A program made the translations under genes and the position numbers. DNA of 55,318 bases from Planctomycetota bacterium (lineage in GTDB: Bacteria; Planctomycetota; Phycisphaerae; SM23-33), in NCBI GenBank assembly GCA_012729725.1, contig JAAYCO010000111.1:1-55318 (forward strand). Reading direction: 5' to 3'. Under the pieces are notes generated by a model that worked only from the letters and a program-made list of their open reading frames with translations, was not told the DNA's origin and did no database searches. Position 1 is the first letter of the stretch; every line of letters begins with the position of its first letter. Below, piece after piece: positions 12,499 to 17,393 of the stretch.

Positions 12499-12951
12499 AT
12501 GAAGCGTTTCAGATGGTCATTGCAGCGGCTGATGGACGTCACCGAGCAACGAGAAAAGGTGCTTCGGATGCAGGTTCTCGCCGCATGGCGGAAATCGAGC
12601 CTTATACGCCGCAGGATCATGATGCACAGGCAATCTATCAGCAGAACTCTCAGCGAGCTTGCGAGCCTGGACTTGGCCACAAGGCTGCTGCGTCAGCAGG
12701 TGTTCATGAACGCGGCTCCCGCACACCAACAGGTTATTGAGGCGCTTGAGAAGCAGCTCGAGGAAGCGCAGGCGCAGCGCCAGGAGCTTACTGAAAAGTT
12801 GATGCAGGTGCGTTCACGCATCAAGACGCTTGAGCGTCTGCGAGAAGAGGCTAGAAGCGAACACCTTCGCCAGGAACTCGCGGTTGAGCAGAAGCAGTTT
12901 GACGAAAACGCGCACATAACCTTTGTGCGATTATCCGCGTCCAGATCATGA
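12499..12951 (+). CDS. fliJ: Flagellar export chaperone FliJ
   Basis: A 150-residue, almost wholly helical, Arg/Gln/Glu-rich coiled coil starting MKRFRWSLQRLMDVTEQREK, the typical FliJ opening. The position directly after fliI is the usual one. FliJ is the central stalk of the FliI ring and escorts export chaperones. The identification relies on the N-terminal motif, length, coiled-coil nature and context, because the family is poorly conserved. Confidence 0.85.
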   Translation: MKRFRWSLQRLMDVTEQREKVLRMQVLAAWRKSSLIRRRIMMHRQSISRTLSELASLDLATRLLRQQVFMNAAPAHQQVIEALEKQLEEAQAQRQELTEKLMQVRSRIKTLERLREEARSEHLRQELAVEQKQFDENAHITFVRLSASRS

Positions 12952-12967
12952 CGGGCAGGAGAAGAAT

Positions 12968-13612
12968 ATGAATAAGAAGGTTTTGTTAATAGTCGGAATA
13001 TTGGCGGTGGTGAGCTTCGCCGTCTCTTTGATCCTCGGCATGATGCTGACCGAACCGCCGCCGCCTCCGGAGGTGGTTCAGGAAGAAGCCCCACAGGCGC
13101 CGCTGGGAGTATCGGCAGGACTGGCCGGCACAACAGCGAAACTGACGCCGCGTGAAAAGCAGCTTGAAGAGCTGATCCGCGACCTTCAGAACCGCATCAC
13201 GGACTACACGCTCAAGTCCAGCGGTCTCGATCAGGAACGCAAACGCCTTGAGATGGCCCAACAGCAGCTTAACAAGCAGGCCCAGGATCTTGAGAGCCTC
13301 CGCATCGAGATACTTACTCCCCTGGCTGCACTCAGGGACGAACAGGCCAGGCTAGACCAGAGCCGCCTGAAGATTCAGCAGGAGGAGCGGGTCAACATCC
13401 GTCGGGCGGCGGCTATTTATGAAAAAATGGATGCCGAATCAGGCAGCAGGATCCTGGCCGGCATGGCGGCAGGAACGCAACTGGATGATGCCGTGAAGAT
13501 ACTCTACTACATGAGCGAGAAGAGCGCCGCCCGCATCTTCACCGAGATGACGGATAAGGAACTTGCCGGACGATTGACGTTGCGGCTCAAACAAATACGC
13601 GAGGAGGGCTGA
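12968..13612 (+). CDS. MotE-like flagellar protein (MgtE N-domain fold)
   Basis: A 214-residue membrane-anchored protein with AGGAG well placed before ATG 12968. Residues ~4-25 form one transmembrane segment, followed by Pro/Glu-rich linker, a coiled coil (~60-145), and a C-terminal segment (~150-210: AAIYEKMDAESGSRILAGMA ... ILYYMSEKSAARIFTEMTD). The last part is the magnesium-transporter MgtE N-domain-like helical repeat found in MotE and in the YlxF-type protein next to FliJ in Bacillus. In those systems it is linked to stator assembly. Position between fliJ and motA agrees with that role here. Confidence 0.75.
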   Translation: MNKKVLLIVGILAVVSFAVSLILGMMLTEPPPPPEVVQEEAPQAPLGVSAGLAGTTAKLTPREKQLEELIRDLQNRITDYTLKSSGLDQERKRLEMAQQQLNKQAQDLESLRIEILTPLAALRDEQARLDQSRLKIQQEERVNIRRAAAIYEKMDAESGSRILAGMAAGTQLDDAVKILYYMSEKSAARIFTEMTDKELAGRLTLRLKQIREEG

Positions 13613-13618
13613 GGTTCC

Positions 13619-14389
13619 GTGGATATTGCGACTATCGTCGGCCTGCTGTTCGGCTTGTTCTGCATCATATGGTCCATCATGCAGAGCGAGGGCGGTCAGG
13701 TCTTTATCAACATCCCGTCGATGTTCATTACCGTCGGCGGGATGATCGCCTCGACGTTCATCCACTTCAGCATGAAGCAGGTGCTCAGTCTCCTGAGCAT
13801 CATGAAGAAGACGCTTATTTACAAGGCCTCAACAGAACTGGAAACGATCCAGAAGATGGTCAATTACACGGCCATCAACCGTAGAGACGGAGCCCTGGCG
13901 CTGGAAAAGCAGCTCCAGTCGGCCGGGGATTCATTTCTTGTAATGGCCCTGAGGATGGTTATTGACGGTCAGAAGCCTGATGCAATGGAAGACCAGTTAA
14001 GTTTGGAAATCCAATCGCTTCAGGAACGCCATGGAAACGGCAAGAAGATGCTCGAATTCATGGGCAACGCCGCCCCGGCGTGGGGCATGATCGGCACGCT
14101 GATCGGCCTTATTCAGATGCTTCAGTCGCTGGACGATCCATCCCAGATCGGCGGCGGCATGGCCACTGCCCTTATTACGACTTTCTACGGATCCTTCCTG
14201 GCGAACCTGATATTTCTGCCCTTGGCGGGCAAACTGGGAATCAGGTCCAAGAAGGAAACCGTCTTGCGGCAGATGATCGCCGAAGGCGCACTGGCTCTTG
14301 CCAGAGGCGACAGTCCGACGGCGGTAAGGGAGAGAATGCAGACATTCGTGTCGGCGTCGCATAGAGAGGAACTAAAACCCAAGATCTGA
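13619..14389 (+). CDS. motA: Flagellar stator protein MotA
   Basis: A 256-residue inner-membrane protein starting at GTG 13619. It has four transmembrane segments: IVGLLFGLFCIIWSIM, MFITVGGMIASTFIHF, AWGMIGTLIGLIQMLQSL and TTFYGSFLANLIFLPLAGKL. The MotA signature around the third segment, AAPAWGMIGTLIGLIQML, is clear, and a large cytoplasmic loop with charged residues lies between segments two and three. It forms the ion channel with a MotB subunit; two candidate MotB genes follow. Confidence 0.95.
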   Translation: MDIATIVGLLFGLFCIIWSIMQSEGGQVFINIPSMFITVGGMIASTFIHFSMKQVLSLLSIMKKTLIYKASTELETIQKMVNYTAINRRDGALALEKQLQSAGDSFLVMALRMVIDGQKPDAMEDQLSLEIQSLQERHGNGKKMLEFMGNAAPAWGMIGTLIGLIQMLQSLDDPSQIGGGMATALITTFYGSFLANLIFLPLAGKLGIRSKKETVLRQMIAEGALALARGDSPTAVRERMQTFVSASHREELKPKI

Positions 14390-14390
14390 T

Positions 14391-15071
14391 ATGGCACGCG
14401 CGTCGCAACAACCTCCGGCTGAAGAAAGCTCCGGCGGCCCGGGCTTATGGGTTGTCAGCTTCAACGACTGCATGACGAACATGCTGTGCTTTTTTGTGCT
14501 GCTGGTCAGCTTTTCGTCATTTGATCCCGATAGCCGCAGCCAACTCACCGGCTCGCTAAGGGCAATCACTCTTGATTCGGTGCTGCCTGACAAGCCCAGC
14601 GAGCCGTCGTTCGTTGCGCCGCCGCCTCAGAACAATGATGTGACCGAGTTTGGCGCAAACGTGAGAACCCAAACTGAAAACACTGTGACCCATCGGCCCC
14701 GGCCCAGACCATTCATATCTGACACGTCGGTTTACAGAGATCGACAGGAGATCATGATCGATTCGCACCAACTGTTTTTGGCGAGGGGAACTGCCTTGAC
14801 TGAACAGGGTAGAGATGGACTCGCGTCGCTGGCAGGTCTGCTCAAGTTCAAGCCGGCGCATGTGATTGTTTCCGAAGCCGGACTTACAGACGCGGTTGGC
14901 AGACCTGACCCGCTGCGGTCTCTTGAGCGAGCATCCGCCATAGTGGAGTTTTTGGTTGCAGGCGGCAGTGCTTCCAGGGATTACTTTGCAGTGGCGCAGG
15001 CGTCCCCCCAGGACATGCCGCCACTGCCGATGGTGCGCATCACAATCCTCAACCGGGAGATGTCCAGATGA
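14391..15071 (+). CDS. motB: MotB-like stator protein 1
   Basis: A 226-residue protein with the MotB N-terminal segment GLWVVSFNDCMTNMLCFFVL, including the ion-binding Asp of the family motif (normally FADLMT). The periplasmic part includes IMIDSHQLFLARGTALTEQG and further OmpA-like elements (RSLERASAIVEFLVAGG), but the peptidoglycan-binding motif is degenerate and the domain short. The start lies one base after the motA stop; the end overlaps the next motB-like gene. It is the more complete of the two MotB candidates. Confidence 0.88.
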   Translation: MARASQQPPAEESSGGPGLWVVSFNDCMTNMLCFFVLLVSFSSFDPDSRSQLTGSLRAITLDSVLPDKPSEPSFVAPPPQNNDVTEFGANVRTQTENTVTHRPRPRPFISDTSVYRDRQEIMIDSHQLFLARGTALTEQGRDGLASLAGLLKFKPAHVIVSEAGLTDAVGRPDPLRSLERASAIVEFLVAGGSASRDYFAVAQASPQDMPPLPMVRITILNREMSR

Positions 15072-15802
15072 ACATCCCTCCACAGGCTGAGGAAGTTCAG
15101 GAAGTGCCGATATGGGTGGTGTCTTTCGGCGACATGATCACCAACCTGCTGGCGTGTTTCGTGCTTATGCAGTCTTTGGCCTCGACGCAGGACAAAACGC
15201 TGTTCAACGCGGGCATGGGTTCATTTCGCCGCGCAGTTGCCACCTATGGCATGCCAACATGGAAAACCACCCATGGCAGAATGGAGCCGAGGCGCAATTA
15301 CAGAAAGATCAAATATCCCACGGAAGAGTCGCCCGAGCCCCTCATGCAGCCGGTCATTAACCCGCGCGACGACCAACTGCGTCAGCTTTATGATGACATG
15401 CGAAAATTGCTGAACGTTAGCGCTTCAGACAGTCGCAGACGGGTGATTGCCGTCAGGCCCATGTCAGCCAAATTCGCGCCTTCATCGGCTTCCATTGGTG
15501 GCGATCTGCAAGGGCAGCTGGCTTCTCTGGCTGCGGATCTTACACAAACGCTAGGTCCTCGGTCGATCATCTTTATAATGTCCGCCGCCCCGGAAGTGGA
15601 AAACGGGCCAAAGCAGTGGGTAGTCTCTGCAATGCGCGCAGCCGCCGCAAAAGAGACTCTCGCCGGCCTGCTTTCCAGCGAGATCAGGGCCGGATGGGAG
15701 CTTGGAGCGGCCGGCGTGGGCGCGGGTGGACGATGGTACGCTAATCTGGGCTTGGCGGACAGCAAGCCACACGTGCTTGTTGTTGTGCTTGAAGATCAGT
15801 AG
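15068..15802 (+). CDS. MotB-like stator protein 2
   Basis: A 244-residue paralogue starting inside the end of motB. The N-terminus IWVVSFGDMITNLLACFVLM keeps the membrane helix and the ion-binding Asp. The periplasmic region (~55-240) has a basic linker (RRNYRKIKYP) and an OmpA-like C-terminal part (RSIIFIMSAAPEVENGPKQW, then VVSAMRAAAAKETLAGLLSS) with weak conservation. Two MotB-like genes with one motA suggest a mixed MotB dimer, or a regulatory MotB lacking strong cell-wall binding. This is not a simple duplication, since the two proteins are strongly diverged outside the membrane helix. Confidence 0.8.
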   Translation: MNIPPQAEEVQEVPIWVVSFGDMITNLLACFVLMQSLASTQDKTLFNAGMGSFRRAVATYGMPTWKTTHGRMEPRRNYRKIKYPTEESPEPLMQPVINPRDDQLRQLYDDMRKLLNVSASDSRRRVIAVRPMSAKFAPSSASIGGDLQGQLASLAADLTQTLGPRSIIFIMSAAPEVENGPKQWVVSAMRAAAAKETLAGLLSSEIRAGWELGAAGVGAGGRWYANLGLADSKPHVLVVVLEDQ

Positions 15803-15835
15803 AACTCAGCCGGTCACACGGCATGGAGCATGAAT

Positions 15836-16372
15836 ATGGCCGAATCTGAAGAACAACTAGCTAATGAAATTGTCTCCGGCGATGGAGGCTCAACCCCCAA
15901 GGCCAAGCTTCTGGTAACGGGACTCTTGGTGCTTGGCGTCGTAGGCATTTGTGCAGCGGGAGGCTTCTTTGTAGGCAGCACCCTCAAGCAAACCGCCGCG
16001 ACATCCGCCGCCGAGCAGCCTGAAGAGACTGACAAACCACAGACAGGTCAAGCGTTTGTCTACATAGACCTGGATCCTGTCATCGCCACCTTGAACACTC
16101 CAAACCGAGAACGAACTGCGATGGCGGTCTTCACGCTTCTCGTTGAGCCTGGCGACGCAGAGACGCTGAAGGCGGCAATGGCCCAGAAGAAGCCCGAGAT
16201 AAACAGCCGCGTGCTGAGGTACCTCAGCGCGCGTACGCTCGAAGAAGTGAGCGGCGAGCTGAATATGAATCGCGTGGCTCGAGAATTGCAGGATTTGCTC
16301 AATGACATAATGTGGCCGGCACAAAGAGGATTGGTGCAGCGCGTCGAGTACAAAAACTTCAACATCCAATAG
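15836..16372 (+). CDS. fliL: Flagellar basal-body-associated protein FliL
   Basis: A 178-residue product. The ATG at 15836 is seven bases after GGAG; the ATG at 15830 is too close to it. One transmembrane segment (~23-43, LLVTGLLVLGVVGICAAGGFF) follows a short cytoplasmic tail. The periplasmic domain shows the FliL layout: FVYIDLDPVIATLNTPNRER, then VFTLLVEP, and the C-terminal helix and strand ELQDLLNDIMWPAQRGLVQR with VEYKNFNIQ. FliL supports stator function around MotAB, whose genes lie just upstream. Confidence 0.85.
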   Translation: MAESEEQLANEIVSGDGGSTPKAKLLVTGLLVLGVVGICAAGGFFVGSTLKQTAATSAAEQPEETDKPQTGQAFVYIDLDPVIATLNTPNRERTAMAVFTLLVEPGDAETLKAAMAQKKPEINSRVLRYLSARTLEEVSGELNMNRVARELQDLLNDIMWPAQRGLVQRVEYKNFNIQ

Positions 16373-16388
16373 GCTGGCGAATAGACAA

Positions 16389-17393
16389 ATGACGCAGGAA
16401 AACGTCCAACGCCTTCTTCAAGCCTTGCGCAAGACCAATAAGGTTAAGCAGTCGCAGACACCGGTTGCGGAATATGACTGGGCGAGGCCCCACAGATATG
16501 AACCCGCCGAACAGGTGCGATTCGAGCAGTCAGCCCAATCTCTGGCGGAAAAGCTTTCGACGGATCTTGGCGAGTTTCTTCATGCTGATGTGAAACTTGA
16601 AGCCCAGCCAAGCGATTCGGCTTTCACGGCGTCGCTGGGATCCGTCGTTGGTCCGGATTTTTACATAAGCTCGCTCGTCGGAGATGGCGATAGGGAATAT
16701 GGATACGTTGCACTAAGCAAGACAGTCGCCGCTGAGTGGATTTCGAAGCTGCTTGGTTCTTCAGCAGGGGCAAAGGCGACTCGAGTCTTCACGCCGCTGG
16801 AGATGTCTTTGTTGATGGACATAATGGGGGCAATAACCGCAATTATTTCCGCAACGGCAGTCAAGCTGTCAATGAGGCCGCTCAAGGCGCCGCGCAGCGT
16901 GGAGAATGCTGAGATTCTTTCCTCTCTCCAGGGCGTTAAGGAATACATGGTCGTGCCGTTGCGGCTGCCGGCAGCCCCCGCCGAAGCGCCCAAGGAAGAA
17001 CCCAAAGAGAAAAATGCCCCAAGCGCAGAGACTCAGACAGAGCCAAAAACAGAACCCCAACCGGCGCAGGCGGAATCACAGGACGATGTGCTTCTGATTC
17101 TGACCGACGACCTCGCCGACAAGCTCGCAGGCGCAACCACGGCCGCCGCGATGCCGGCTGCGGAAGTCAAAAAACTGATTGTCTCTCACCTGCAAAAGGC
17201 GCCTGTGACAGTCGACGTGCTTCTGGGCCACGCCGGCTTGGCCATGAAGGACATCATGAATCTCCAAACCGACGATGTTCTGGTTCTTTCCGACTGGCGC
17301 GTTGCATTGCGTTCGCAAGGAGCGCATGTCGCATATGGCAGCCTGGTCAACTGCGAAGGGCACTATGGATTTCTGCTCGAGCGAAGAGTCTAG
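16389..17393 (+). CDS. fliM: Flagellar motor switch protein FliM
   Basis: A 334-residue protein. The N-terminal TQENVQRLLQAL resembles a degenerate CheY-binding helix (family EIDALL). It is followed by the FliM linker motif YDWARPHRYEPAEQVRFEQS and a CheC-like middle domain (~60-200: LSTDLGEFLHADVKLEAQPS ... MSLLMDIMGAITAIISA). A Pro/Glu/Lys-rich linker (~195-235) then precedes a C-terminal SpoA domain (VTVDVLLGHAGLAMKDIMNL). The charged linker is longer than in enteric FliM. It forms the C ring with FliG and FliN. Confidence 0.87.
   Translation: MTQENVQRLLQALRKTNKVKQSQTPVAEYDWARPHRYEPAEQVRFEQSAQSLAEKLSTDLGEFLHADVKLEAQPSDSAFTASLGSVVGPDFYISSLVGDGDREYGYVALSKTVAAEWISKLLGSSAGAKATRVFTPLEMSLLMDIMGAITAIISATAVKLSMRPLKAPRSVENAEILSSLQGVKEYMVVPLRLPAAPAEAPKEEPKEKNAPSAETQTEPKTEPQPAQAESQDDVLLILTDDLADKLAGATTAAAMPAAEVKKLIVSHLQKAPVTVDVLLGHAGLAMKDIMNLQTDDVLVLSDWRVALRSQGAHVAYGSLVNCEGHYGFLLERRV

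Follow-up and report, generated by a model that had tools for sequence, protein, structure and literature searches.

The window, by which we mean the whole stretch of DNA analyzed here (55,318 nucleotides), carries a flagellar gene cluster on its plus strand. The cluster includes genes for rod-type proteins, fliF, fliG, fliH, a FliI-type ATPase gene (a label that comes from reading the sequence rather than from a profile scan), fliJ and a coiled-coil gene, and continues with motA, motB1, motB2, fliL and two FliM/N-type genes. The features of the stator region are as follows.

13619..14389, plus strand: motA, the sole flagellar motA of the genome (Pfam MotA_ExbB, 102.8 bits; own-genome scan)
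14391..15071, plus strand: motB1, 226 aa (MotB_plug, 48.4 bits; MotB1 clade support 97)
14466..14468, plus strand: codon of the ion-binding Asp, D26, of MotB1 (FNDCMT; from the sequence)
14742..15056, plus strand: predicted OmpA-like periplasmic domain of MotB1, approximately residues 118–222 (AlphaFold model; Foldseek)
15068..15071, plus strand: ATGA overlap of the motB1 stop and the motB2 start (from the sequence)
15068..15802, plus strand: motB2, 244 aa (MotB_plug, 36.6 bits; MotB2 clade)
15131..15133, plus strand: codon of the ion-binding Asp, D22, of MotB2 (FGDMIT; from the sequence)
15437..15796, plus strand: predicted OmpA-like periplasmic domain of MotB2, approximately residues 124–243 (AlphaFold model; Foldseek)
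15830..16372, plus strand: fliL, next in the flagellar operon (Pfam FliL, 45.7 bits)

The three stator genes are adjacent on one strand, as in Aquifex, and both motB genes are encoded with motA in the flagellar locus. The motB1 ATG at 14391 lies 1 nt past the motA stop, and the motB2 ATG at 15068 lies inside the motB1 stop. NCBIfam models of the PomA/MotA type match motA over its full length, below their cut-offs, and MotB2 also has a sub-threshold match to NCBIfam MotD (5.5e-8 over residues 6–195). When the window's own genome (3.2 Mb, 96.6% complete) was scanned, MotB_plug was found at two places only, motB1 and motB2. MotA_ExbB was likewise found at two, motA and a gene on another contig, C29. 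Because this latter gene is TolQ/ExbB-like, we rejected it as a second flagellar motA, which leaves one in the genome. The initial annotation had read the locus as two overlapping motB genes served by a single motA, with the membrane helix and ion-binding Asp kept in both; given the 4-nt overlap, the absence of any further MotB in the scan, the MotB_plug scores above the Pfam cut-off and the residues D26 and D22, this description is sound.

Three other loci in this genome deserve mention. On contig C29, two dissimilar ExbD-like genes, with the motifs TPMIDCVFQ and TPMIDVVFQ, lie in tandem downstream of the TolQ/ExbB-like gene (1213–1860, followed by 1889–2380 and 2382–2894, all on the plus strand); the ExbD label was assigned by reading rather than by a scan. 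This cluster shares its layout, one A-type gene and two B-type genes, with the flagellar trio. Between fliL and fliN in the window, the only match of the gene at 16389–17393 is to the FliM/N C-terminal domain. As the FliM, SctQ and FliY models fall far below cut-off, this switch protein looks unusual. Upstream of motA, the gene at 12923–13612 encodes a coiled-coil membrane protein; its MgtE_N and FlbB-like matches are weak.

The periplasmic parts of the two MotBs were originally described as completely different. This proved too strong. Family profiles built from 55 MotB1s and 53 MotB2s align with each other over 217 columns (hhalign probability 99.8), and each matches solved MotB proteins in profile searches. 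In AlphaFold models (mean pLDDT 78.9 for MotB1 and 82.6 for MotB2), each protein has a TM helix, then a short helix, and an OmpA-like domain, with pLDDT values >88 across residues 121–220 of the MotB1 periplasmic domain. The short helix is a predicted plug, located after the TM helix at residues 46–59 of MotB1 and 43–59 of MotB2. For both proteins, the best Foldseek matches are the periplasmic domains of OmpA and MotB. Profile alignment, models and Foldseek together reject complete difference, and the models indicate that both MotBs carry diverged copies of one OmpA-like domain.

The accompanying remark that peptidoglycan-binding signatures are weak was right. Pfam OmpA taken alone remains below cut-off (E 0.074 for MotB1, no match for MotB2), yet ≥90% of MotB1 rows and all MotB2 rows keep the RA-motif Arg (Arg180 in MotB1). 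In the single MotBs of sister families, this motif reads GH...LSxARA. Its counterpart is SE...GLxRA in MotB1, GH having become SE in the relatives, and GLAxD...LSAxRA in most MotB2s, with E in place of D in the window's MotB2. Thus, the GH/D part of the peptidoglycan-binding motif is replaced in MotB1 and variable in MotB2. An Asp and an Arg in the OmpA-like domain are the presumed peptidoglycan-binding residues.

To follow the pair through relatives, we scanned the class for MotB_plug and found it in 218 of 298 genomes. By hand count from the resulting table, all 68 motB-bearing genomes of nine families (f1, f12, f13, f14, f17, f21, f23, f25 and f26) have at least two matches. Of the remaining 150 motB-bearing genomes, 146 have one match and 4 have two. 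Loci were fetched from many, but not all, genomes of the pair families (none from f13), yielding 56 pairs after exclusion of one locus whose contig ends within MotB1 (L094) and one lone MotB without a MotA (L089). MotA is encoded directly upstream in 55 of these pairs, the exception beginning at a contig end, and the exact 4-nt overlap of motB1 and motB2 is seen in 44/56. Outside the class, the pair is present at 37 of 40 loci (39 genomes) chosen by their match to the MotB2 profile, and the 4-nt overlap is rare (2/37 pairs). When 392 genomes of the phylum were scanned without bias, 221 proved to carry MotB_plug; single and double matches were both common, and the members of a double match were not always neighbours. 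The pair is therefore widespread in the phylum but not universal. Among 80 named loci, the pair occurs in 26, of which 25 are titled planctomycetes and one 'uncultured bacterium'. The remaining 54 loci, most of them from Gammaproteobacteria and a few from Thermodesulfobacteriota, contain a single PomB-like gene, apart from one locus with two separate motA-motB pairs (L195) and one with two overlapping frames, perhaps a frameshift (L207).

Co-conservation of the two genes had been proposed as a check, and the counts from the nine families fit it. Relatives that have just one of the two yet move normally had been named as the observation that would refute the mixed dimer. No single-MotB genome was seen inside the pair families (68/68 have at least two matches); single-MotB relatives do exist, and they belong to another lineage. 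In a tree of class MotBs, from which rows <150 aa were omitted, MotB1 (56 rows, support 97) stands apart from MotB2 and the single MotBs, and MotB2 forms a clade with support 100 that comprises 54 rows and one MotB2 split over two contigs. L089, the long-branch lone MotB, is an exception. The MotA tree of the class likewise separates trio MotAs from single-MotB MotAs (support 100). In a quick tree of the phylum, built without bootstrap, the 68 MotB2s sampled all group in a single clade (support 99), whereas no more than two changes are needed for MotB1, beside which the PomB-like outgroup is placed. Because these trees separate MotB1, MotB2 and the trio MotAs, the motB pair is old, and the single-MotB relatives belong to another stator lineage, not to trios that have shed one gene.

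The three genes also travel together, as judged from two observations. A second type of trio, found in seven genomes of several families, forms a clade in MotA, MotB1 and MotB2 alike, and two genomes carry two whole trios each (L084 and L144 in G177, L249 and L250 in G609). The two trios of G177 are of different types.

Similarity between the two MotBs was then compared within and between genomes. Mean TM identity of MotB1 and MotB2 is 0.607 in the same genome versus 0.526 between genomes (56 pairs), a value that none of 5000 shuffles reached, also when shuffling was confined to families. In the seven type-2 trios, this excess is absent (0.725 versus 0.727). Periplasmic distances of MotB1 and MotB2 have a partial correlation of 0.43 when MotA is allowed for (53 pairs; 0/2000 permutations as high). 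One caveat here is that the TM similarity and distance-matrix signals also follow from a common MotA and common ancestry. The mean same-genome identity falls well short of the near-identical TM regions that characterize both MotBs of an Aquifex-type pair.

The most informative variation concerns the ion-binding Asp of MotB2. This residue is present in 56/56 class pairs, in 32/37 pairs from other classes and in 0/30 pairs from one other order. The five exceptions outside the class have Ala or Ser at the site, and the 30 MotB2s of the Asp-less order have Ser (23), Ala (5) or Gly (2). This order, taken up because one of the five exceptions belongs to it, was represented by 62 genomes, 60 of them with some match, of which the 30 best loci were read; six more matches outside these 30 are near full-length and lower-scoring. 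The Asp of MotB1, by contrast, is kept in 56/56, 37/37 and 29/29 readable proteins from the class, the other classes and the Asp-less order, respectively (the MotB1 of L277, cut by a contig end, was left out). Three of the five exceptions recur among the 30, such that Asp-less MotB2s were found in 32 genomes altogether. Two of these, G336 and G405, represent another order as sampled, and both retain the MotB1 Asp. Our guess is that the Asp-less order corresponds to Brocadiales. PF18582, a hydrazine-synthase family tried as an anammox marker, was discarded, since it matched 12/12 genomes, two of them from another order.

Scans for a third MotB found none in five genomes with an Asp-less MotB2, nor in the 12 motB-bearing genomes among 15 further members of the Asp-less order (Asp state read in 10). 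FliG was detected in 8/8 genomes in which it was sought. Of 75 pairs compared, the 20 closest give dN/dS values of 0.07–0.36 for Asp-less MotB2s, similar to those of the neighbouring MotB1s; these proteins are under purifying selection. All 30 MotB2s of the Asp-less order have a TM pattern ending in AFF, and all 30 have an extra Asp located N-terminal of the lost site, by 6 residues at 15 loci and 8 residues at the other 15. This upstream Asp may be a relocated ion site or merely mark the helix end. It is absent from the MotB2s of G336 and G405. Separately, in one single-contig genome of this order (G381:C1:358245-358391), the MotB1 open frame is only 122 aa long, so the stator gene there may be disrupted or frameshifted.

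Loss of the Asp from one MotB in some relatives suggests that the two MotBs cooperate as an unequal pair. A homodimer of Asp-less MotB2 should be unable to conduct ions, and the only partner available to it in the scanned genomes is MotB1; hence, a heterodimer is the best reading. We propose, with a probability of roughly 0.65, that the trio encodes a single flagellar stator, its MotA ring enclosing a MotB1 and a MotB2 where other stators have two copies of the same MotB. The simplest reading extends this arrangement to every carrier of the trio. The ring would consist of five MotA copies, as in the MotAB complexes of known structure. MotB1 and MotB2 would assemble 1:1 in one pore, and anchoring to peptidoglycan would occur through two unequal OmpA-like domains. 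In the window's species, ions would flow past both Asps, giving two ion sites, whereas in carriers of an Asp-less MotB2 they would pass the MotB1 Asp only, perhaps with half the ions per turn. Such a mixed dimer is consistent with the translational overlap, the joint inheritance of the genes and the better TM match within genomes. The mixed dimer raised in the initial annotation is favoured by the Asp-less MotB2s found elsewhere in the phylum. A stronger version, to which we would give slightly less than an even chance on these sequence comparisons, is that trio-bearing planctomycetes use an obligate MotA5-MotB1-MotB2 complex and that at least one order runs a half-site motor, in which the MotB1 Asp is the single ion site and each turn would take about five ions instead of ten.

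Retention of both Asps in the window's family is also accounted for by two homodimeric stators, MotA5-MotB1(2) and MotA5-MotB2(2), which would have MotA in common and exchange according to load, ion or cell-wall state. That family also keeps the RA-motif Arg in both proteins. Moreover, the TM regions of Aquifex MotB1 and MotB2 each function with MotA by themselves, as chimeras in E. coli (PMC4525482), and hence MotB homodimers are possible in an organism with one motA and two motBs. However, in the 15 scanned genomes whose Asp state was read, the sole second MotB is an Asp-less one, whose homodimer should not conduct, and such proteins are under purifying selection. There is also no single-MotB genome in the pair-bearing families, and the 4-nt overlap in most class pairs suggests matched synthesis over switching. 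We therefore regard two homodimers as unlikely.

Another way to explain why the Asp was lost from MotB2 only would be for a MotB1 homodimer to form the channel, with MotB2 as a membrane-anchored accessory beside the stator, a peptidoglycan-binding or assembly factor in which the Asp is dispensable. The lower scores of the Asp-less MotB2s (12–28 bits against a custom MotB_plug-type profile, in the Asp-less order) point the same way. Yet the Asp is kept in 88/93 pairs of the class and other-class sets, and the invariant AFF ending in the Asp-less order would be needless outside the pore, which makes an accessory role quite improbable. Divergence of motB2 and its loss of the Asp in some lineages might also be expected of a decaying duplicate. 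This idea is contradicted by the dN/dS values of the closest pairs and by the phylum tree, in which MotB2 is a single ancient, phylum-wide clade, and the frames are intact; we consider it very improbable. The mixed MotB1-MotB2 dimer remains our preferred reading.

Searches of the open-access literature returned no description of the planctomycete motA-motB1-motB2 trio, nor any account of a MotB partner that naturally lacks the Asp or of a heterodimeric MotB. The main text of a paper on a cultured deep-sea planctomycete (PMC10945688) contains no mention of motA or motB. The novelty originally claimed for the mixed dimer is reduced in one respect, in that one motA with two motBs has been published for Aquifex aeolicus (motA, motB1 and motB2 in one operon; PMC4525482, in the text available). 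Only the heterodimer part would be new. Mixed dimers are not discussed in that text, and words beginning with 'hetero' are absent from the main text.

The Aquifex operon resembles the planctomycete trio in having one motA and two motBs with differing periplasmic parts. The N-terminal/TM parts of the Aquifex MotBs are 97% identical and the periplasmic parts 23% identical (PMC4525482). In planctomycetes, by contrast, the TM regions differ (same-genome mean 0.61), and other lineages have an Asp-less MotB2. The AglRQS gliding motor of Myxococcus also combines one A-type with two B-type partners, namely one MotA/TolQ homologue and two MotB/TolR homologues encoded in one cluster (PMC3169522, PMC9389320). 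A 2022 review leaves open whether pairs of the AglQ/AglS type form hetero- or homodimers (PMC9389320). Those proteins are gliding components of the ExbD/TolR type with a conserved Asp in both, according to the same review, whereas the proteins described here are flagellar MotBs with OmpA-like domains. With canonical MotA5B2 and PomAB stators, the trio shares the MotA ring protein, the single Asp-bearing TM helix, the plug helix and the OmpA-like domain. It departs from them in having two different B subunits, the canonical stator containing a homodimer. In descriptions of ion-driven 5:2 motors, the axle is a dimer whose subunits are alike. Here a second MotB is widespread and, in some lineages, no longer has its ion site, which offers a natural test of the number of ion-binding sites that a stator requires and of whether the two halves of the axle have separate jobs.
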